DNA from: an uncultured Planctomycetaceae bacterium
Lineage (GTDB): Bacteria > Planctomycetota > Planctomycetia > Gemmatales > Gemmataceae
Direction of reading: 5' to 3'
Assembly (NCBI GenBank): GCA_937888715.1
Contig: CALARU010000249.1
Coordinates: 1 to 40,355 of the forward strand
DNA length: 40,355 bases
Part shown: positions 6,744 to 31,964 of the stretch, one piece after another
Layout: each line of letters begins with the position of its first letter
Numbering within the stretch: the first letter of the stretch is position 1
Program-made: the position numbers and the translations under genes
Notes under the pieces: model-generated
What the model was told of the DNA's origin: nothing
Seen by the model: only the letters and a program-made list of their open reading frames with translations
Databases searched by the model: none

Positions 6744-9700
6744 CTACCCGCCCACCCGCTTTTCTTCAAGCAATTCAGCAGGCATATCATTTTCGAGTTC
6801 CCAAACGAAAGAGATTGGGCGCTCTCCTTCGAATTTAACTTGATTGGCTCTGCCTAAAAACTGGAATGGCACTGTGAGCGTTTCTGTTTTTCTGTTGATT
6901 CTAACAAAGAGAAAAATTTGATACCCCAGCTCCTTGTGATGAATCATGTTTTGCCCGTCAGAATGCTTTTGTAGGGTATTCGATTGGGATTCCCAATGGA
7001 ACAACCTCTCATTGATGGGGTAATCCTTGTACATGGTAGATGCTGAAAATTCATTTTCTATTTTGTTAGTGGTGATAAGCAATGCATAAGATTTTTTTAA
7101 AGGAAAGTGCAGTACCCCAACACCCTTTTGTGTGTTTTTGCTGAACGTATCAATGCCAAAAGCTGCTTGGATTTCGTCATTGCCGTAATGAGCATGCAAT
7201 TCCAAAGGCAATCCTTCGTAATCACTATCTTTTTTAATAAGTGATCTTTCCTGACTAAAGGAAGCGATTTCGGAAATATCATTGCAGAAATTAGGATTAG
7301 CTTTCAATCGTAGAAAAGAATCCTCCAATGTTTGCATTCCCATTTTAGAACCACTTTGACCCCATACCAAGGAATGCAGCATACAAGAGGCAGCGCCCGA
7401 AGGAACTGGTGTATTGGAAAGAACCAAATCTTTAAGCCTTTGCAGGTGCTTGATTCCGGAAGATTGGCAAATCCTTCCCAGCGTAATTTTTAAAGCCTCA
7501 GCATCGGCATCCGTTACTTTGGGAATAATATTTGCTGCCGCTTTCCATTCACACCAAGGCTTCATCGCCAAGACTTTTTCAGGCATCAAGTCATGGTGCT
7601 TGAAATAATTTGCAAACGTAAGCTGTAAACCTGTTTCGTGTTCAAATGCTTTCAGCGTTTCAGGAATATAATTTTTAAGGTTTGAATATGCAGCCTTGAT
7701 GTTTTGCAGAACCAAAGCCATGGCTTGTTTTTCCATCTGGATAATACAGCCAGGTGGAAGATGCGGAAAACCCGCCAAGACTTCTTTTTCTATATTAAAT
7801 CGCCTGCTTGGAAGCAGTGCTGCGAACTTGCGATCAATCCTGTAACGCCTATGCATTTGCGCAACAAAATCCAAAACCAGCAAGCATTCCTTGTGTGTTG
7901 AAGCAGAGTGCCTTAGGCCACGACCCAATTGTTGCAAATATACCGTTAAACTATCGGTCGGCCTTAAAAATAGCACGAGGTTGACTTCGGGTATATCAAC
8001 GCCCTCATTAAAAAGATCAACTGTAAATATAAAATTGATCGTTCCCTGCCTCAATGCTTGAACAGCATTCTTACGATCTTCATCAAGGCTTTGCGAATGA
8101 AGCGCAAGCGAAGGCAGGCCCTTATTGTTAAATTCTTGAGCCATGAATTCTGCATGTTTCACAGATACGCAAAAAGCAAGCCCTTTGTAAGACTGAATGT
8201 CCCCTAGGCAATAAAGATCAAGCGCCCTGAAGATTGCATCAGTTCTTTGCTTTGCTGAGGAAGGATTATTGACATAAGCTTTTTCCAATTCCGATTGGGA
8301 GTATTTGCCTTTCTCCCAAAATTTCTCATCACTAATATTCACAGGATCAGCAACGCAGAAGTATTGGAAAGGGCAAAGAAGTTTTTCCTCTAAAGCCTCG
8401 GGAAGGCGCAATTCAGCAGCAACTCGGTCATTAAAATACTTGAGGATGTTTTCGCCATCCATGCGCTCTGGGGTTGCAGTGAGACCTAACAAAATCTTCG
8501 GTTTAAAAAACCCGAATATTCCTTGGTAGCTAGATGCCGCACTATGATGAACTTCATCCACCACGATGTATTCGTAATAATCGCTTGGGAGCGTATTCCA
8601 AAGTTCTCTTGCATGAAAAGTTTGCACAGTACAAAAAAGATGATCCATGTTAGCAGGGTCAGGCCTGCCCCCACCCAACTGGCTGGCAAAGTTCGCATCC
8701 TTTAAAACAATCCTGAAAGTATCAAGGCTTTGCGTAAGAATTTCATCCCGATGAGCAAGGAACAATAATTTTGGCCTTCTGCCTTGATTGCTTCCTACAA
8801 ACCTCCGGTAATCGAGCGCTGCTATTACTGTTTTTCCTGTTCCTGTTGCAGCAATAACTAGATTCTTGAATGAGCCGCGGAGCATTCTTTCCGCTTCAAG
8901 GTTTTCAAGGATTCGATTTTGAAAAGGGTACGCATTAACATCCATGAATTTGGATTGGGAAAATGAATTTACTCGTATGCCGCTAATATCCAAGGCTTCT
9001 TGAAGTTTTTTCTTATCAACTCCTTGCCTGTAATGGCTAAAAATTTGGCTATTCCAATAGCCTTCAAACTCCGCTTCAAATTTCTTGATAATATCGGGAA
9101 GGTCTTGGCTGGTTACTTTGAGGTTCCATTCCAACCCCTCACGCATGGCAGGGTCCGACATATTCGATGAGCCAACATAAGCCGTTGAAAAACCGCTATT
9201 TCGATGGAAGTAGTAAGCCTTTGCATGAAGCCTAGTATGTTTCTTATCGAACGATATTTTCAATTGCACATTTGAATATTTTGCAAGGTTTTCAATTGCT
9301 TCAAGCTGGGTTGCCCCGAGATAAGTGGTGGTGATAATTCTTACGGGAACCTTACGATCTTGCAGAATATCAAAGCCTTTGCGCAGCAACCTAAAACCCG
9401 AATTAAGAATAAAGGACACTAGGATATCTAGGCGATCTGCTGATTCCATTTCGGCAATAAGCTCATTAAAAAGCTGTGGACCATTACGGGAACCAGTAAA
9501 AAGCGAACTTTGCACCAAAGATGTAACAGGTACAGCGGGTTTTTCGTTTTGACCTGTTCGGAGGATCGCCTCTAGTAATTTACATTTGTCGTCCAGTAAT
9601 TTGTCATCATCGACCTGTGGATCCCACTTTTCAACTTCTGTAAGCACTTTATTAAATAAAAGAACCTGCTGTTGGATAGCATCATCCCCTTCAATACTTT

Positions 9701-23614: not shown

Positions 23615-24019
23615 GAGAATGCTTCCTAATGCGGGCGGGCGCTTTTGAAACTACAGCCCATTAATAGTTTATTAGAAATGTATTGTAACCCTGCTGATAG
23701 GGTCAAGGAAGATAAAAAGGGGGAAGGATATTAGTAGAGCGCCTTATCCTGAGCAAACAAATACATACTTTAAATATCACTTTTATTTTAATATATGTGT
23801 ATAATCTTTTTGAGCAGTAGGAGTGCCACCTTATACATCACACCAAGATGAAAGGTCGAAATGGCGGAGGTTGATCAATGCAGTACATCCGGAAATAGAT
23901 TCCCTTGCCTAAGCTAAAAAAACTCCCCCAATAATTTGTGGCTAAGCACTCTAAATTAGCGTTTAATATATTTCGACTAAGATTAGATTAAACTCATATA
24001 AAGCTGAGCGTGTTGATTG
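23615..24019. promoter_or_regulatory. 405-base divergent intergenic region
   Basis: This AT-rich region separates the minus-strand molybdopterin set from the plus-strand FkbM gene, so it should hold both promoters. On the plus strand a sigma70-like pair TTGAGC (23810-23815) and TATACA (23832-23837), 16 bases apart, can be seen. Downstream lies a perfect GGAGG (23866-23870) seven bases before an ATG that opens a six-codon frame, MQYIRK. Next to the minus-strand gene, ACCCT-gctgat-AGGGT (23688-23703) could form a small hairpin or operator. No longer gene or RNA was recognised. Confidence 0.4.
23878..23898 (+). other. Possible six-codon leader peptide with strong RBS
   Basis: ATG at 23878 is preceded by GGAGG with seven-base spacing and encodes MQYIRK before a TAG. 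It lies about 35 bases downstream of the predicted start point of a sigma70-like promoter and 120 bases ahead of the FkbM gene. A second frame starting at 23861 (18 codons) overlaps it. Chance occurrence cannot be excluded. Confidence 0.25.
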
Positions 24020-25231
24020 ATGAAGCCATTAAAACAACTGATACATCGTTTGCTGGATAGCTGCGGATTTAAAGTAATGAAAAATTCAGCACATACAGAC
24101 CTAATCAGAGAGCTAGAGAAAAACCTAGAAAAAAGGTTTGATTTTCTACAAGAGAGAATAGTCGCTAACAGCTTTTTTTTTAAAAGAAATGTCCCCGCTT
24201 GGTACCAGCCGATTGCATCTGAACCCGGCGTGCAGTTAATCCTTCGAGACCTAATAAAACCAGGCGATACCTGCCTAGATGTTGGCGCCTTCCAAGGAGA
24301 TCTGACATTGGTGATGTCCAGACTGGTTGGACCAAAAGGACAGATAGTCACCTTTGAAGCAAACCCCTTGATTCTCGAACGATTAACCAACAATTGCATT
24401 TCCAACTTTCTTACCAATGTATTCCTAATACATGGTGCGGTATGGCATAAATCCGATGAATGGCTACAATTTTTCAACAACGGCGCAGCTTCTCGAATCG
24501 ATATTAAATCAACTGAAAAAATTGAAGATTTGTTTCATGTAAAATCTATAAGCTTGGATGATTTTCTAGCACGTAACAAAATGATTCCAGATGTTGTAAA
24601 AATGGACATCGAGGGTGCTGAAAAACATGCATTACGTGGTTTTGCCAACAATTTGGATCTGCACAAACCCCATCTAATCTTCGAGCACGCTACGAATGAT
24701 CGTGATGATGATGCATTGGTTATAATCAAGAGTCACGGTTACCGGACATTTTGCTCGAATCAATATCAGGAAGTCCACACCTCTGCTGATTTTTTAAAGG
24801 GTTCTACAATTCGGAATGTGGTCTGCATTCATGAATCCAAGATCGGGAGCACCGGGTTTGCTAATCCACTTTCATTGGTAGAGAAAACAAAGTTTAAATT
24901 GTCTGATTTTGAGAAAGTTACAGAAAGTGTTTATTCGATAAAAACCAACCTAGATACTGGAAGGTATATCGCACTTTTAGAACTTTCTGCCCCAGCGGAT
25001 GCAACCATCTCTTACCAGATTGCAACCGAAAGAGGCATACAAGGGCAATATTATGAACAATACTGCAGATTCGAACCGAGCTGCAGAGACCTTCCATTTG
25101 ATCTTTCAGAACCACAAACCGTTAAGGTTAATTTGGAAACAGTTGAAAGAGATTTTGCTTCAACCATTCAAACCTGCTCTGTTCAGATTTTCAGAGTTGA
25201 TGGGTATCCTGTTTCCAAGCACTTTATTTGA
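24020..25231 (+). CDS. FkbM family methyltransferase with extra C-terminal domain
   Basis: The product is about 403 residues from the ATG at 24020; a TTG directly before it is less likely. A helical N-terminal part (about 1-60) precedes the SAM-binding fold: motif I CLDVGAFQGDLTLV (about 85-98), acidic VTFEANP (about 110-116), then SISLDDFL and VVKMDIEGAEKHALRGF (about 192-208), the FkbM hallmark. FkbM enzymes O-methylate sugars or other small molecules. Residues about 265-403 form an additional, probably beta-rich segment that I do not recognise. The gene is more AT-rich than its neighbours: the rows 24061-24240 contain 70 G or C in 180 bases by my count, and no clear RBS is visible. Both points hint at transfer. 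The last 81 bases recur, mutated, at 30939-31025. Confidence 0.88.
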   Translation: MKPLKQLIHRLLDSCGFKVMKNSAHTDLIRELEKNLEKRFDFLQERIVANSFFFKRNVPAWYQPIASEPGVQLILRDLIKPGDTCLDVGAFQGDLTLVMSRLVGPKGQIVTFEANPLILERLTNNCISNFLTNVFLIHGAVWHKSDEWLQFFNNGAASRIDIKSTEKIEDLFHVKSISLDDFLARNKMIPDVVKMDIEGAEKHALRGFANNLDLHKPHLIFEHATNDRDDDALVIIKSHGYRTFCSNQYQEVHTSADFLKGSTIRNVVCIHESKIGSTGFANPLSLVEKTKFKLSDFEKVTESVYSIKTNLDTGRYIALLELSAPADATISYQIATERGIQGQYYEQYCRFEPSCRDLPFDLSEPQTVKVNLETVERDFASTIQTCSVQIFRVDGYPVSKHFI

Positions 25232-25237
25232 AAACCC
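25151..25237 (+). repeat. 87-base direct repeat, copy 1 (inside the FkbM 3' end)
   Basis: This segment covers the last 27 codons of the FkbM gene, counting the stop, plus six bases. It recurs in the same orientation at 30939-31025. My hand alignment gives 80 identical bases out of 87 without gaps. Confidence 0.9.
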
Positions 25238-25358
25238 AAAACACCTGCTTAAATAATTAATGTTATTTACTATACACATCTTTATGTATTACAATCTAAA
25301 CTTAGACTGCCAGAATATCTTCTAAAAATAAATCATGAAAAGAACACAAGGTTGAACC

Positions 25359-28064
25359 ATGATCTCATTGAACCTTGGCACATCCGCGACACTGATTAAA
25401 ATGCTGGACTTCATTAGCATTTCTAACATCCATCGACACTTTTTAACCACTTGGCTCGTACTTCTTTTTAGTCTGTTTCCCAACCACGCAAAAGCTGCAG
25501 ACGAGGAAGTCTCATATCACAAGCATATAATGGCGCTGTTTAGTAAGTTAAGCTGTAATGGAGGAAATTGTCATGGAGCGGTGAAAGGACAGAATGGGTT
25601 TCGACTATCGATGTTTTCTGCCGACCCGCAAGGCGACCACGCAAGATTGTTATATGAAACAGGGGGTCGACGAGTGAACCCCCAAGATCCAGTTTCCAGC
25701 TTGTTGTTGCTTAAAGCTACGGGCCAAATTCCCCATGGAGGCGATGTGCGGATGCACTTAGGCGGTGCAGACTACCAAATGTTCTTACGCTGGCTGGCAT
25801 CAGGTGCACAAAAAGATGATATCAATATGGCCCAACTAAGTTCGTTACAAGTCACCCCATCTGAGCAATTAACCAAGCCTGGAGAAAAGTATCGACTAAA
25901 GGTGCAAGCAAAATTCGCGAGTGGCAAGAGCGAAGATGTAACCGATTTATGCTCATTCGAATCGCTTGATCCAGGAGTCGCAACAATAGATCGAAAAGGA
26001 TGGGTGGAAGGCGTGGGCGTAGGTGATGCGGGACTGATCGTGCGCTACCGCGCTCAGCCGATCGCAGCGCGGGTACTTGTTCCCAAAATCCATGGAATCC
26101 CTTTTCCTAATCTGCAAACCGCCCACTTCATCGATAGGCATGTGGTGGAAAAACTAAAGCTGTTAAATCTTCCGCCTGCGGATTTATGCGATGATGCCAC
26201 CTTCTTTCGTCGAATACACATTGATATGCTGGGCGATCTTCCCAGCCCGGAGGAAGTCCGTACCTTTTTACAGGATAAACAGCCTGACAAACGCACAAAG
26301 AAAATCGAACAGTTACTCGTTCACCCTTCACATGCCGACCTGTGGACCCTAAAGTTTTGCGACTTGCTCAAGGCTGCAGAGTTCGGGGTCTATGCGGATG
26401 CCCTGTCGAAAGAACAAGATGCGCCTCGGATGCAAGCATGGATTCATAGCAGGCTGGTCGAAAACATCCCCTACGATCAATTCGCTGAGCGGATTTTACT
26501 TGCCAACAGTCGTGAAGGCCGATCAATCGAGGAATACATCCGCGAAGTAACCGCCCTATTTGAAGGCTATGCACCAGGCCGACCTGACCTCGAAGTATAC
26601 TCCAAGCGAAAAACACTGGATCTTTATTGGCAAAGGCGCAATTCGAGCGGAGTGAAAGGCACCTTGCAGGTGGCGCATGCATTTCTCGGACTAAGGCTCG
26701 AATGCGCCCAATGTCATCGACATCCACATGACAATTGGCAGCAAGAAGACCTGCTTGACTTTGCAAACCTCTTCATGCGTGTCCGAAATGTAGGCTTTGA
26801 AGGTGATAACGAGAAAAAGTTTCCCGATATTGCAGTCCACTTCAAAAAACTAAACACTGAATCCAAGACCCTCGAAAGCGAAGTAAAGAAACGGAAAGAA
26901 GGAGAAGGAAAGAAGCAAGACGAGCTTGGAAAGAAATACAAACTCGAATCAGAAAAATTAACCTCAGAAGTAGCTAAGTTAGAAAAGAGCAATCCTGGTG
27001 ATCCTGAGTTGTCAAAGAAGAAGGAAGAGCTGAAGCGGACAAAGGATGGGTTAGAAACTGTAGAAAAGTACCGTCAAGAAACGGCTACTCTAGAAAAGAA
27101 ATCCAAACTATTGAACGGCATATCGGTTCGTATGATGCATGCGGAGAGTCGACTCTTGCCCGAAGGCACTTTTGCAAAAGTCACGAGCCCACTAGGCACT
27201 GCAGAATCAAAAAAATCTCGCCTCTTGGGAAAAACGGAGGCTGTCTCAGTGCCTGCAGAAAGCGACCCTCGAGTATCTGTCATCGCTTGGATGCGCGAGC
27301 CAACAAATCCTTACTTTGCCAAAGCTATTGTCAATCGCGTCTGGGCTCATTACTTTGGACGGGGTATTATCGATCCTCCCGACAATCTTTCTGCATTCAA
27401 TCCCGCCACCCATCCCGAATTATTGGAAGAACTTTGTGCTGGCTTCATTAAGAATAACTACGATCTACGATGGTTGCATCGGACGATTATTTCCAGTAGA
27501 ACCTATCAGCAATCAAGCACACCCAAACCTGGTTCAGAAACAGACCGCACGCACTACGCATCATTCACCCTCCGCAGAATGCAAGCAGAGATATTACTAG
27601 ACGCAATCAACACTGCGACCAGTACTAACGAGAATATGGACATGAAGTTTTCAAATTGGCCAGACTCAATGAAGATAGTGCAGATGCCTTTTTTTCCTCG
27701 TAATACTTTTGTGACTCATGTGCTAGAGACTTATGGTAAGCCTCAACGAAACGGAGGGGTACAATGCGATTGCGAACGCGACGAGTCTAGCTCTATCTTT
27801 CAAGTGCTCACGATTGCAAATCATCCCCGCATTTGGGAAAAGATTAAAGACCCGAAAGGCCGATTGGCAAAACTGCTCAAGGAATCGCTCGACGATTCCC
27901 AGAAGATAGAGGAATTATTCCTTGCAACACTAAGCCGAACACCCAATGAAAATGAGCGAACGCATTGCCTAGAGTATATCAAAGCGGCATCTTCTTCCGA
28001 AAAAGGTTATCAAGGCGTGTTCTGGAGCCTGCTGAATACCCGGGAATTCTTATTACAACATTGA
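25359..28064 (+). CDS. PSD1 protein with cytochrome-like, Ig-like, DUF1549, coiled-coil and DUF1553 regions
   Basis: The 901-residue protein has a leader ending near residue 46 (NHAKAAD). The N-terminal haem-like motif is CNGGNCHG (Cys66, Cys71, His72), that is CX4CH rather than CXXCH. A bacterial Ig-like domain (BIG2 type, about 162-246; SSLQVTPSEQ, then DPGVATIDRKGWVEGVGVG) follows. DUF1549 (about 255-460) ends with a normal CAQCHRHPHDNW near 448. A highly charged heptad-like segment (about 490-585) is probably a coiled coil. DUF1553 (about 639-880) has FAKAIVNRVWAHYFG and ends LLNTREFLLQH. This belongs to a PSD1 branch distinct from the other three in the window. AAGG precedes the ATG. The paired DUF1501 gene starts 83 bases downstream. 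A secreted redox or adhesion role is inferred. Confidence 0.92.
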   Translation: MISLNLGTSATLIKMLDFISISNIHRHFLTTWLVLLFSLFPNHAKAADEEVSYHKHIMALFSKLSCNGGNCHGAVKGQNGFRLSMFSADPQGDHARLLYETGGRRVNPQDPVSSLLLLKATGQIPHGGDVRMHLGGADYQMFLRWLASGAQKDDINMAQLSSLQVTPSEQLTKPGEKYRLKVQAKFASGKSEDVTDLCSFESLDPGVATIDRKGWVEGVGVGDAGLIVRYRAQPIAARVLVPKIHGIPFPNLQTAHFIDRHVVEKLKLLNLPPADLCDDATFFRRIHIDMLGDLPSPEEVRTFLQDKQPDKRTKKIEQLLVHPSHADLWTLKFCDLLKAAEFGVYADALSKEQDAPRMQAWIHSRLVENIPYDQFAERILLANSREGRSIEEYIREVTALFEGYAPGRPDLEVYSKRKTLDLYWQRRNSSGVKGTLQVAHAFLGLRLECAQCHRHPHDNWQQEDLLDFANLFMRVRNVGFEGDNEKKFPDIAVHFKKLNTESKTLESEVKKRKEGEGKKQDELGKKYKLESEKLTSEVAKLEKSNPGDPELSKKKEELKRTKDGLETVEKYRQETATLEKKSKLLNGISVRMMHAESRLLPEGTFAKVTSPLGTAESKKSRLLGKTEAVSVPAESDPRVSVIAWMREPTNPYFAKAIVNRVWAHYFGRGIIDPPDNLSAFNPATHPELLEELCAGFIKNNYDLRWLHRTIISSRTYQQSSTPKPGSETDRTHYASFTLRRMQAEILLDAINTATSTNENMDMKFSNWPDSMKIVQMPFFPRNTFVTHVLETYGKPQRNGGVQCDCERDESSSIFQVLTIANHPRIWEKIKDPKGRLAKLLKESLDDSQKIEELFLATLSRTPNENERTHCLEYIKAASSSEKGYQGVFWSLLNTREFLLQH

Positions 28065-28147
28065 ATACTACCAATAAAATTTTGGATTCCTTCTCAAATG
28101 TAGGGTAAGATAAAACTAGTAAAGACTCTCAATAATGGGGCACTATT

Positions 28148-29473
28148 ATGATTCGAAGAGATTTCCTTCGTATAGGTGGTTTAGGATTGTGTGGCATAGG
28201 GGCACTAGATGTGCTGCGTGCACAAACCCTAGGAAACAACAAGCAAGCCAAGGCAAAACAAATGATTGTCTGCTGGTTGGGGGGTGGGCCTCCCCATCTC
28301 GATATGTTTGATATGAAGCCCGATGCACCTGAAGAGTATCGGGGCCTCTTCAAACCGATCCAGACAAAAGTTGTAGGTTTACAAGTTGGGGAACTACTGC
28401 CCGAACTAGCCAAGCGAGCAGACAAATTTACTGTGATTCGTTCCGTCAGCACCTTAAACAAGCCAGGCGATCATGCCCAAGCTCCACTCTATTGGCTGAC
28501 GGGCAATCCCAGACTCACATCCGGCAGTGATGAATACCCGATGTATGGCAGCGTAATAAATAAGCTGAAGCCGGGTTCCAAAGATTTACCAAGCTTCGCA
28601 GTGTTGGACGAAATTGATGTACACACCCACAATGCGCTCTCACGCAACTTTCTCGGGTGGGCCCACTCCCCGCTCATCATGCAACCCCTCAAAGACAAAG
28701 ATGCCATCACACAGATGCTCACTCCCCAGCTTGAACTTCAAGCTTTCGAGAGCCAAACAAATCTGTTGAAAAAGCTTGATGGCAAACTTCGCCGAAACGA
28801 TTCGCAAGATGAAGTGATCGCTGGCCTCGATCAATATCAACAGACTGCATTCAATCTGCTTCGTTCACCAAAACTACGGCAAGCTTTGGACATTTCAAAA
28901 GAGCCCGCCAGCTCAGTTGAACGGTATACCAAAAATAAACCAAGTAAGGCTCGGTACCCTATTGGTGATCCCTTGCACTTCTTGATCGCACGAAAACTGG
29001 TGGAAGCCGGTGTTCCCGTCGTCCATTTTAACTTGGGCTATTGGGATTGGCACGGCGATAACTTTACCGCAGGCAAACAACAGATACCTATGTTCGATTC
29101 GTGCATGGCCGCCCTGCTCGACGATTTGGAAGAGAGGGGCTTGCTTGATTCGACGATCGTCCTTGCACTCGGAGAAATGGGCCGGAAGCCAAAAATTGAC
29201 AATGTAAAGGCGGTCGGTGCTGGAAGAGACCACTGGGATTACGCACAATTCGTACTGGCGGCTGGCGGTGGGTTTAAGCGCGGTGCCATCGTTGGTGCCA
29301 CCGACAAGTTGGGTGAGCGTGTTGTGGACAAGTTCTACAAGGTCGAGAGTTTTGGTCGAACCCTGTACCATCTATTAGGCATTGATGCTGATACCATAGT
29401 CCATACTCCAACCAAACGACCGGTCAAACTCATTCTTGAAGATGCCCCCCTGATCAAAGAAGCACTGATTTAA
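28148..29473 (+). CDS. DUF1501 protein with divergent motifs
   Basis: The 441-residue protein has a leader (MIRRDFLRIGGLGLCGIGAL) of twin-arginine type. The first motif reads WLGGGPPHLDMFDMKPDAP, where relatives have GGPSH-DTFD; both the Ser and the Thr are lost (Pro and Met). The second motif reads ALGEMGRKPKI instead of GEFGRTP, while GRDHWDYAQF and AAGGGFKRG are kept. The family fold is therefore intact, but the putative nucleophile region is altered, so the protein might be a binding or structural relative rather than an active hydrolase; this is inference. GGGG lies about nine bases before the ATG. It pairs with the Ig-containing PSD1 gene upstream. The end GRTLYHLLGIDADTIVH is typical. 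Confidence 0.9.
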   Translation: MIRRDFLRIGGLGLCGIGALDVLRAQTLGNNKQAKAKQMIVCWLGGGPPHLDMFDMKPDAPEEYRGLFKPIQTKVVGLQVGELLPELAKRADKFTVIRSVSTLNKPGDHAQAPLYWLTGNPRLTSGSDEYPMYGSVINKLKPGSKDLPSFAVLDEIDVHTHNALSRNFLGWAHSPLIMQPLKDKDAITQMLTPQLELQAFESQTNLLKKLDGKLRRNDSQDEVIAGLDQYQQTAFNLLRSPKLRQALDISKEPASSVERYTKNKPSKARYPIGDPLHFLIARKLVEAGVPVVHFNLGYWDWHGDNFTAGKQQIPMFDSCMAALLDDLEERGLLDSTIVLALGEMGRKPKIDNVKAVGAGRDHWDYAQFVLAAGGGFKRGAIVGATDKLGERVVDKFYKVESFGRTLYHLLGIDADTIVHTPTKRPVKLILEDAPLIKEALI

Positions 29474-29518
29474 ACCTAACGAAAACTGCCATTCACTCGG
29501 GGAGGACTCCATTACTTA

Positions 29519-29563
29519 TTTAGCTTCACCCCTCGATGATAAAAGCATGAAACTGAAGCTAAA
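29519..29563. repeat. 10-base perfect inverted repeat
   Basis: TTTAGCTTCA at 29519-29528 and TGAAGCTAAA at 29554-29563 are perfect inverses separated by 25 bases. The position, 46 bases after the DUF1501 stop, suits a weak terminator for that gene, but there is no following T run on the plus strand. It could also be an operator or a mobile-element end. Confidence 0.55.
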
Positions 29564-29753
29564 CCATCAGGAGAGCCATGGCTATTGCGCCAATGGACGG
29601 TTCTTCAACGAGCCGAAAAGCCAGCATGGTAGGATCCACGAAACCGAGGGTAAACCCTAGAACGCTACCCACCATGATGCGACTGATTACAAGAATGCCA
29701 ATCAGCCACACAATCGTAGCGGGCCACCTGTATCTCCGCAGTGTCGATGGCAT
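29559..29753 (-). CDS. Candidate 64-residue membrane protein or fragment
   Basis: On the minus strand, in the gap between two plus-strand genes, a frame of 64 codons starts MPSTLRRYRWPATIVWLIGI. It continues through a long hydrophobic stretch (VISRIMVGSVLGFTLGF) to a second hydrophobic end (IGAIAMALLMV). The pattern of basic start, transmembrane segment, acidic loop and second hydrophobic segment looks like real protein. There is no convincing ribosome-binding site; the same frame is open further upstream opposite the LamG gene. I do not recognise a family. It may be the remnant of a larger membrane protein or a chance antisense frame. Confidence 0.3.
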   Translation of the reverse strand: MPSTLRRYRWPATIVWLIGILVISRIMVGSVLGFTLGFVDPTMLAFRLVEEPSIGAIAMALLMV

Positions 29754-29804
29754 CTTCTGCCGGAACCTTTGTAACCCCACTAAATAGCGAAAAGGAATAC
29801 AACG

Positions 29805-30890
29805 ATGGCCCGCATCTTTTTTACGATTCTCTTTGTTGCCGCCACAACGCTTGTTAGGGCAGAGCCACAAGCTCCGACCGGGGATGTCGCCTCCCGGGTA
29901 GAGAATAAACTCAAGACCACCCGCACCCGCGACTCCATCTTCAGTGAACTGCGTAACAAGGCGGTCGTTTCTGGCCGTGTCGACGAAAACAATATTCGCA
30001 AAGCTGTCACTTTTTATGCGAGCTTCGACGAAAGCCTTAAAGCCGACTATGGTGCGGGAGAGCGTGCGCCCCATACTCGATTCAACCACCCAACAGAAAA
30101 GGGTCAGTTCATCTTCGAGAAAGATATCAAGGAAAAAGTCTTCACCATCGCAAAGTCGAAGGGCATAGCTGGCGGCGCTCTCGAGGTGGTGGATGTACTG
30201 GATAAAAACGGCCGCATCTTCTACCCGGCGAAGGGGAACATCGCTTTCAAGAAAGATGGCTGGAGCGGATCAGTCTCGATGTGGTGCAAAACCGACTCCG
30301 AAAAGCTGCTAAAAACGAAGTTTTGCGACCCGGTCCAGATTACGCAGAAGGGCGCAAACAACGGCGGGTTGTGGTTCGACTTCAACGATGCCAAACCGCG
30401 TGACCTGCGGCATGGCGCATTCTCGATGATCCCCGATGGACAAAAGGGTATAGGCGAGGACGACCCCAAAGCTCCTATGGTTCGAGTTTCAGGCATAGGA
30501 TGGAAAGCCAACGATTGGCACCATGTCGTGCTCACCTTCAAGAACCTCGATACCGGCAAACCCGACGCCTTGACCGCAATTTATATCGATGGCAAACTCA
30601 TTGGTGAAGTGAAAGACCGAGCCATTGCAATGGGCTGGGACATAGAAAAGGCCGGCATATACGTCGCAATTAATTATATCGGCTTGCTCGACGAGTTCGC
30701 ATTGTTCGACAAGGCACTCACAGGCGAGGAAGTGTCACATTTGCACAAGAATCCCGAACTGCTGTCGCCACTCAAAAAAAAGGCTGCCCTCGAGAATCCT
30801 CCCGCCTCGACAGCCATAACTTCAGAAGAAGTGCCTCGCGGCTTGAAGGATTTCTACCGCAAAACGGCTCGCCCGGATGGTTCTTTTTAA
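29805..30890 (+). CDS. Secreted LamG/concanavalin-A-like domain protein
   Basis: The 361-residue protein has a signal peptide (MARIFFTILFVAATTLVRA). A laminin-G-like jelly-roll domain (about 65-300) begins TFYASFDESLKADY, includes GWSGSVSMWCKTD, NDWHHVVLTFKNLD and AIYIDGKLIGEV, and ends with YIGLLDEFALFDKALTGEEV. Those strands are characteristic of LamG_3 domains, which usually bind or recognise glycans. A proline-rich tail follows. AAGGA lies eight bases before the ATG at 29805. Base composition is higher in GC than the surroundings: the three rows 29881-30060 contain 96 G or C in 180 bases by my count. It may accompany the upstream PSD1/DUF1501 pair as a surface-binding partner, or be an independent insertion. 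Confidence 0.88.
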   Translation: MARIFFTILFVAATTLVRAEPQAPTGDVASRVENKLKTTRTRDSIFSELRNKAVVSGRVDENNIRKAVTFYASFDESLKADYGAGERAPHTRFNHPTEKGQFIFEKDIKEKVFTIAKSKGIAGGALEVVDVLDKNGRIFYPAKGNIAFKKDGWSGSVSMWCKTDSEKLLKTKFCDPVQITQKGANNGGLWFDFNDAKPRDLRHGAFSMIPDGQKGIGEDDPKAPMVRVSGIGWKANDWHHVVLTFKNLDTGKPDALTAIYIDGKLIGEVKDRAIAMGWDIEKAGIYVAINYIGLLDEFALFDKALTGEEVSHLHKNPELLSPLKKKAALENPPASTAITSEEVPRGLKDFYRKTARPDGSF

Positions 30891-30938
30891 AACGGGATCG
30901 ATCCGGGCTATCGCAGCATATCCGATGCGGCATACAGC

Positions 30939-31025
30939 GATTTTGCTTCAACCATTTAAAGCTGCTCCATGCAGATTTTCAGGGTTGATGGGTATCCTGT
31001 TTCCAAGTACTTTATTTGAAAACCC
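30939..31025 (+). pseudogene. 87-base repeat, copy 2: remnant of an FkbM-type gene 3' end
   Basis: This piece matches 25151-25237 in 80 of 87 positions by hand alignment. In the frame of the intact gene it reads DFASTI, a stop (CAA changed to TAA), then SCSMQIFRVDGYPVSKYFI and the same final stop codon. Two of the seven differences are silent third-base changes, as expected for divergence of once-coding copies. Nothing upstream of 30939 resembles the rest of the methyltransferase. It lies between the LamG stop and the convergent hydrolase gene. Confidence 0.7.
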
Positions 31026-31052
31026 TAGAGCCATACGAATATCAACTTATTA

Positions 31053-31964
31053 TTATTTCCTCGCAGGCAAATAGCCAAGTGAAACGAGGAAGTCATCAGC
31101 TTGATCAAGTGTTTCTTTCATTTTCTTGTTGTTAAAAAACCCATGACCTTCGCCTTCGAACCCAATGAGTTGACAGCGATTACCAGCTTTGTTCATGCGT
31201 TCTGAAAATTCCGCAGCAGAACTGTAAGGCACAGTGGTATCTGCTTTGCCATGAAAGATAATGGTTGGGGGAACACCCTTCTTAACATGATGGGCTGGGG
31301 AAAATGCCTCAGGGTCGCAACCAAATCTTTCCTTGGTCGATTTTGCCAAAAAGCCCTCTAGCATTAATCCAGGAATAGGAGCCAACACCAATGCAGGGTT
31401 AAATAACACCAGCGCATTGGGTGTACTTGAAACTTTAAGATCTTCGCCAGCAGCTTCTAAGCCAGGAAGGGTGGCAGTGGCAGCAGCAAGATGACCCCCT
31501 GCAGAGCCGCCACCCGCAGCAACCCGATCAGGATCAATCCCCAACCGCACTGCATTGGTACGAATATATCGAACACAAGCCTTGGCATCCGCAACGCAAT
31601 CAATTGGCTTTGCCATGTTGCGCGATGAAACTCGATAATCTGCAACAATTGCAACCATGCCTCGCTCTGCAAGATGCTGACACTGTGGAACAAATTGAGA
31701 TGGAGTGCCTGAGGTCCAGCCGCCGCCAAAGAAAAACACAATTGCAGGCCTAGGCTTTGTTGCTTTTTCCTTTGGTTCAAATATCCAAATTTTAAGTTCT
31801 GTATCACCAACCTTACGATAGGTTTCAACTTTGGAACTTTCAATCGTTGGCGGGTAAGCCTTGTTAGCTTTTTGCTTTTGTTCCTGTGCCATGGCTGTGC
31901 CAGAAACCATACTCATCAATAAGAGAGATGGGATGAAGGAATTCTTTAAAGTAATCTTAAACAT
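31053..31964 (-). CDS. Secreted alpha/beta hydrolase (esterase, Abhydrolase_3-like)
   Basis: The 303-residue protein has a signal peptide (about 1-26, ending TAMA). Landmarks of the hormone-sensitive-lipase/acetyl-esterase branch are FFFGGGW (oxyanion loop, about 77-83; HGGG in most relatives, so the His is lost), VADYRVSS, and the nucleophile elbow GGGSAGGH with Ser154. The remaining triad residues are Asp242 in GKADTTVP and His274 in GEGHGFF. A complete triad suggests an active carboxylesterase, perhaps removing acetyl or other acyl groups from polysaccharides; the substrate is a guess. AAGGT precedes the ATG at 31964. It is the only minus-strand gene in the right half and diverges from the C39-like gene. 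Confidence 0.9.
   Translation of the reverse strand: MFKITLKNSFIPSLLLMSMVSGTAMAQEQKQKANKAYPPTIESSKVETYRKVGDTELKIWIFEPKEKATKPRPAIVFFFGGGWTSGTPSQFVPQCQHLAERGMVAIVADYRVSSRNMAKPIDCVADAKACVRYIRTNAVRLGIDPDRVAAGGGSAGGHLAAATATLPGLEAAGEDLKVSSTPNALVLFNPALVLAPIPGLMLEGFLAKSTKERFGCDPEAFSPAHHVKKGVPPTIIFHGKADTTVPYSSAAEFSERMNKAGNRCQLIGFEGEGHGFFNNKKMKETLDQADDFLVSLGYLPARK

Follow-up and report, generated by a model that had tools for sequence, protein, structure and literature searches.

In E. coli, single-crossover integrations of a plasmid duplicated parts of the homologous locus, 109–950 bp long (Amarir-Bouhram et al. 2011, PMC3240628). In homology-facilitated illegitimate recombination, described in S. pneumoniae, A. 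baylyi and P. stutzeri, one homologous join is combined with one join at 3–10 bp of microhomology, and in its classical form recipient DNA is usually deleted or replaced rather than duplicated (PMC3240628). For Rhs 3′ ends and orphan immunity genes, a comparable process has been suggested (PMC5361080).

The locus described here lies in a window of 40,355 nucleotides (the whole stretch of DNA that was analysed) from an uncultured Planctomycetaceae bacterium, in which a PSD1-DUF1501-LamG module stands between two copies of the 3′ end of an FkbM-family methyltransferase gene. As in the single-crossover integration of circularised DNA, a foreign insert is flanked by a partial direct duplication, of 87–90 bp here; there, E. 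coli and a plasmid were used, whereas here the event is read from the sequence, the duplication is shorter and the donor was not found. The combination of one homologous with one microhomology join would be shared with homology-facilitated illegitimate recombination, but about 87 bases were duplicated here and nothing was visibly lost, which counts against that route. As in the T6SS/Rhs 3′-end displacement arrays (PMC5361080), genes appear to have been added behind a conserved anchor and the old 3′ end to have been pushed downstream as an orphan, although here the product of FkbM is left essentially as it was and no use of the remnant is known. Direct repeats and a restored target 3′ end are likewise features of integrative elements in the 3′ ends of genes; here, in contrast, there is no integrase, the repeats are imperfect and one junction is a microhomology within a truncated gene.

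Repeat pair and genes of the locus

The sequence-only reading had reported a direct repeat at 25151-25237 and 30939-31025, identical in 80 of 87 positions and in the same orientation, with the functional end of FkbM as the first copy and, as the second, a tail with an early stop in which the frame and the final stop are kept. The repeat finder and a search of the whole genome (4.56 Mb; E = 4e-30) confirmed it, the former calling 25148-25237 and 30936-31025 as direct repeats of 90 nt, 91% identical (82/90 matching positions), with a spacing of 5788. The features of the locus are listed below; the comparison set comprised seven genomes of the genus, namely the window genome (G000) and six others (G001 to G006).

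24020..25231, + strand: intact FkbM-family methyltransferase gene, 403 aa from ATG (TTG at 24017 also possible); Pfam PF05050, E = 3e-15; NCBIfam TIGR01444
25148..25237, + strand: repeat copy 1, the functional FkbM 3′ end and six bases past the stop
25238..30935, + strand: inserted segment; not at the same site in G006 (L072 2224-2313 empty, continuing TAGAGC...), filled sites in L071 and L070
25359..28064, + strand: PSCyt2/PSD1 (DUF1549/DUF1553) protein gene, 901 aa; domain match, 98-99% in G003/G005
28148..29473, + strand: DUF1501 protein gene, 441 aa; domain match and homologue searches
29805..30890, + strand: LamG (Laminin_G_3) protein gene, 361 aa; domain match, its C-terminus prolonged by reading into a fragment of a foreign gene
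30829..30946, + strand: truncated 5′ part of a prenyltransferase/squalene-cyclase-like gene, about 40 codons, with an in-frame TAA; protein matches in other genera
30936..31025, + strand: repeat copy 2, non-functional FkbM tail, then native downstream sequence
30939..30946, + strand: microhomology GATTTTGC, 8 bases, at the join of the prenyltransferase-like fragment and the FkbM tail; from alignment to homologue L161
31053..31964, − strand: alpha/beta hydrolase (esterase) gene, the native right-hand neighbour; domain match, syntenic in L072, L070 and L099

The FkbM protein scored 93.8 bits against TIGR01444, above the curated cut-off of 37.7, and its orthologues in G005 and G006 are 96-97% identical. 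Copy 2 is without a start, and a change from CAA to TAA gives its early stop; this stop is private to the window genome, copy 2 of G005 and of G003 reading CAA at that place. The two copies differ by 6-9% within one genome, and copy 2 is a non-functional, decaying scar. In copy 1 of the window (25187-25220), GGGTATCC is found, as it is in the second copies of the window and G003, where most other copies have GGTTACC; gene conversion between the copies is a possible source of this sharing.

When the 4.56 Mb genome was searched for further copies of the 87-base segment, none was found beyond the two real ones. The next-best match was of 27 bases (E = 0.18), and the same 27-base match recurs in G001, G002 and G005. 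A dispersed repeat was thus ruled out by the search of the genome and its congeners: the segment has two genome copies only, and the weak 27-base match (C398) lies in congener-conserved sequence. Neither in the genome nor in the congeners was the segment found as an attachment site elsewhere or with other cargo. A diversity-generating retroelement, with template and variable repeats, was ruled out on sight, the differences between the copies not being limited to A positions.

Empty and filled sites in the genus

The FkbM tail is present in three of the six further genomes. An empty site, as insertion predicts, was found in one of them, G006 (L072), where a complete, single-tail FkbM runs straight into a gene here called X (392 aa, weakly glycosidase-like), followed by the esterase gene. 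The sequence after this single repeat is the sequence that follows copy 2 in G005 (95.8% over 1.5 kb). In G005 (L071), FkbM, the module, copy 2, X and the esterase 3′ end follow in order. In G003 (L070), the module stands behind an FkbM cut to its last 53 codons, and copy 2 is located past a scaffold gap of ten N (L070 9428-9437). The same two junctions were found in the filled sites of G000, G005 and, with its scaffold gap, G003: at the left, AAAAYACCTGC comes after ...TTTGAAAACCC, in place of the TAGAGC of the empty site; at the right, ...ATACARCGATTTT is joined to the FkbM tail, and the native TAGAGC comes after copy 2.

In G001, which is close to G006 (95.6% over 7.7 kb adjoining the locus), no FkbM, X or module lies between oxidoreductase remnants and the esterase gene. 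G004 has neither FkbM nor module, and in G002, an incomplete genome, no copy of the module was found and the only FkbM is distant (32%). Close homologues of the module genes were not found in the congeners without the module. An ancient stable order, which the sequence-only reading had named as speaking against its proposal, is thus not what was found: the arrangement occurs in three of the seven genomes. The locus without the module, for which it had proposed a search, was found, the empty site resting on one genome, G006, within a set of fragmented assemblies, two of them named as metagenome-assembled.

Several further differences were observed around the module. An apparently longer duplication in G003 (a 111-base LamG end and a 210-base esterase end) was traced to the scaffold gap. 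At this gap (L070 7419-9664, N at 9428-9437), what appear to be two different forms of the locus are joined, the first having X but no copy 2 and the second copy 2 but no X. In G006 and G005 the FkbM tail is followed by X; at 31026-31105 of the window, this gene is absent. A sequence of ~55 bases at the start of X resembles the 3′ end of the esterase gene, and X was probably lost from the window by recombination between these short repeats. REP-like palindromes, CCTGAAGCGCAAGCGAAGG...CCTTCGCTTGCGCTTCAGG, flank an IS200/REP-associated-transposase-like gene that lies between the oxidoreductase gene and FkbM in G006 (L072 102-641) and G003 (L070 744-1283); this gene was also found in G005 (L082) by DNA match. 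The window is without this gene and has kept its right-hand edge, TCCGGAAATAGATTC, at about 23889. The spacer between the oxidoreductase gene and FkbM is a hot spot of variation in the genus, and the break of FkbM in G003 lies inside REP-like repeats (L070 1616-1700). Since the module persists in G003 after the near-total loss of FkbM, FkbM is not needed for its persistence.

Composition, right junction and divergence of the inserted segment

The only genes of the insert are those for PSD1, DUF1501 and LamG; neither a transposase nor an integrase was found in it, nor were terminal inverted repeats. A transposon with target duplication was ruled out, as transposase and inverted repeats are lacking and 87 bases are too long. 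In other genera of the family, the PSD1 and DUF1501 genes are conserved as a pair (orthologues 60-63% and 76-84% identical, respectively); within the genus, PSD1 proteins elsewhere have at most 42% identity. At three of the PSD1-DUF1501 loci in other genera, the pair adjoins a prenyltransferase-like gene in divergent orientation, which belongs to the family from which the fragment derives. A conserved PSD1-DUF1501-LamG trio was sought elsewhere and not found; the relatives of LamG (55-85%) stand in other contexts, some of them fused to other domains. FkbM is absent beside the PSD1-DUF1501 orthologues at seven loci of other genera, FkbM had no match in viral contigs, and LamG had none in plasmids. 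The inserted piece thus appears to be a composite, which would have been assembled before it entered these genomes.

At the right end of the insert, 118 bases before and into copy 2 (30829-30946) correspond to residues 28-70 of prenyltransferase-like proteins (336 aa) of other genera, with a protein identity of 56-66%; an intact homologue belongs to Pfam PF00432. The homology stops at GATTTTGC, the start of the FkbM tail. The alignment to homologue L161 ends at 30946 (AGCGATCTTGC), L161 itself reading GATCTTGC, and FkbM copy 1 of G000, G003 and G005 carries AGAGATTTTGC at this position. Judged from homologue L161, the microhomology falls within the 3–10 bp range of illegitimate joins, and a gene cut exactly at the repeat edge with such a microhomology is the mark of one. 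Since LamG reads into the prenyltransferase-like fragment, its last residues are not native; many LamG relatives end at or near ...LKKK. The right end of the module is not a clean cassette end. The description of the block as a self-contained module therefore holds for the PSD1-DUF1501 pair, which is conserved elsewhere in the family, but not for LamG, with relatives in other contexts, nor for the right end, a truncated unrelated gene.

Between species, dS of the module genes ranges from 0.03 to 0.08, against 0.20-0.34 for the oxidoreductase and esterase flanks. For the window and G005, dS was 0.06-0.08 for PSD1, DUF1501 and LamG, 0.16 for FkbM, 0.27 for the oxidoreductase and 0.29 for the esterase; for the window and G003, it was 0.03-0.04 for the module, 0.27 for the oxidoreductase fragment and 0.20 for the esterase. 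At fourfold sites, the module differed from the flanks with p = 8e-13 (G005) and 7e-9 (G003), and from FkbM with p = 0.013 (G005). In sliding bins, the mismatch rate against G003 falls at copy 1 and climbs again from copy 2 onward. As its dS is far below that of the flanks and below that of FkbM, the module arrived or was exchanged later; either it is younger at this site than the FkbM alleles, or it has been exchanged between species. Selection on codon use is not favoured as the source of the low dS, which is common to all three genes despite their differing GC3 (0.46-0.61). DUF1501 is without amino-acid change across the three module-bearing genomes, which shows purifying selection, under which the module genes have stayed. 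The most variable part of the otherwise uniform module is the non-coding stretch before LamG (29600-29700), with clustered mismatches and a 35-base gap relative to G005.

Origin of the arrangement

The 87-base repeat is probably, with somewhat better than even chances, an insertion scar, 5.7 kb having been added by one homologous and one microhomology join and the FkbM tail duplicated in the process. The ancestral order would have been oxidoreductase, FkbM, X and esterase, as in G006. A piece of 5.7 kb with PSD1, DUF1501, LamG and a broken prenyltransferase-like gene would then have been added behind FkbM, by a homologous join in the FkbM 3′ end and an illegitimate join at GATTTTGC, 87 bases short of where the shared stretch ends. 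FkbM would have remained intact ahead of the insert, with an extra copy of its tail after it. Most likely, a circularised fragment would have been integrated by single crossover, or a linear one by homology-facilitated illegitimate recombination, the incoming DNA coming from a relative whose FkbM was already followed by the module. We infer the homologous join, since no donor locus with FkbM next to PSD1-DUF1501-LamG was found outside the three genomes; we likewise infer the donor, the order of the steps and the circular or linear intermediate, and for the same reason a circle, a linear intermediate and capture at a staggered break are not distinguishable. Of the origins suggested from the sequence, insertion of the module beside FkbM is the most likely, given a congener with the site and without the module; neither a duplication of FkbM genes nor a second FkbM reduced to a remnant is borne out, as no genome of the genus has a second such FkbM and one recombination event suffices. 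The reading as a second FkbM gene is unnecessary.

Had FkbM once stood at either side of the module, a deletion beginning midway through the prenyltransferase-like gene and reaching almost to the end of the second FkbM would have removed most of the latter; it would also be expected to join the fragment to the FkbM tail at a microhomology. In G003, a deletion has taken away almost the whole of the front FkbM. Such a history of duplication and deletion is unlikely, since it takes two events against one and a longer second FkbM was present in no genome examined. We regard it as quite unlikely that the filled arrangement is ancestral and that G006 lost the module. Recombination between the 90-base direct repeats would yield exactly the G006 structure, and the closely related G001 lost or never had even more at this place; however, the module is younger than FkbM, its dS being about half that of FkbM between the same genomes, and the G006 copy combines the variants of the two G005 copies so that a simple recombination would not suffice and several crossovers would be needed (weakly, from four sites only).

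Insertion with a homologous join has also to be weighed against capture of foreign DNA at a staggered break, in which two nicks 87 bases apart would be filled in and joined to a foreign fragment, the target being duplicated without donor homology. This would account for the exact duplication of recipient sequence on both sides and for the microhomology at the right join, but a stagger of 87 bases is long and nothing positive sets this course apart, so that it, too, seems rather improbable. It is very doubtful that the FkbM tail is a repeatedly used exchange site, through which the PSD1-DUF1501-LamG block would move between species without a recombinase of its own. Least probable of all is an integrative element with 87-base attachment sites at the FkbM 3′ end, able to excise and reinsert: direct repeats placed at the 3′ end of an intact protein gene, empty and filled sites, and a module less diverged than its surroundings are consistent with it, whereas the lack of integrase, transposase and terminal inverted repeats in the insert, the 6-9% difference between copies within a genome, the right repeat abutting a truncated gene at a microhomology, and the segment's presence at no other site argue against it.

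The locus is a real acquisition scar, ordinary in mechanism and unusually well documented. It makes an acquisition event readable in an uncultured planctomycete genus: the site is seen both empty and filled, the two junctions are at hand and a relative age can be given. It also cautions that a partial gene copy need not imply a lost second gene. For PSD1 and DUF1501 genes, which abound in planctomycetes and whose function is unknown, it shows how plain recombination can add them without a dedicated mobile element.
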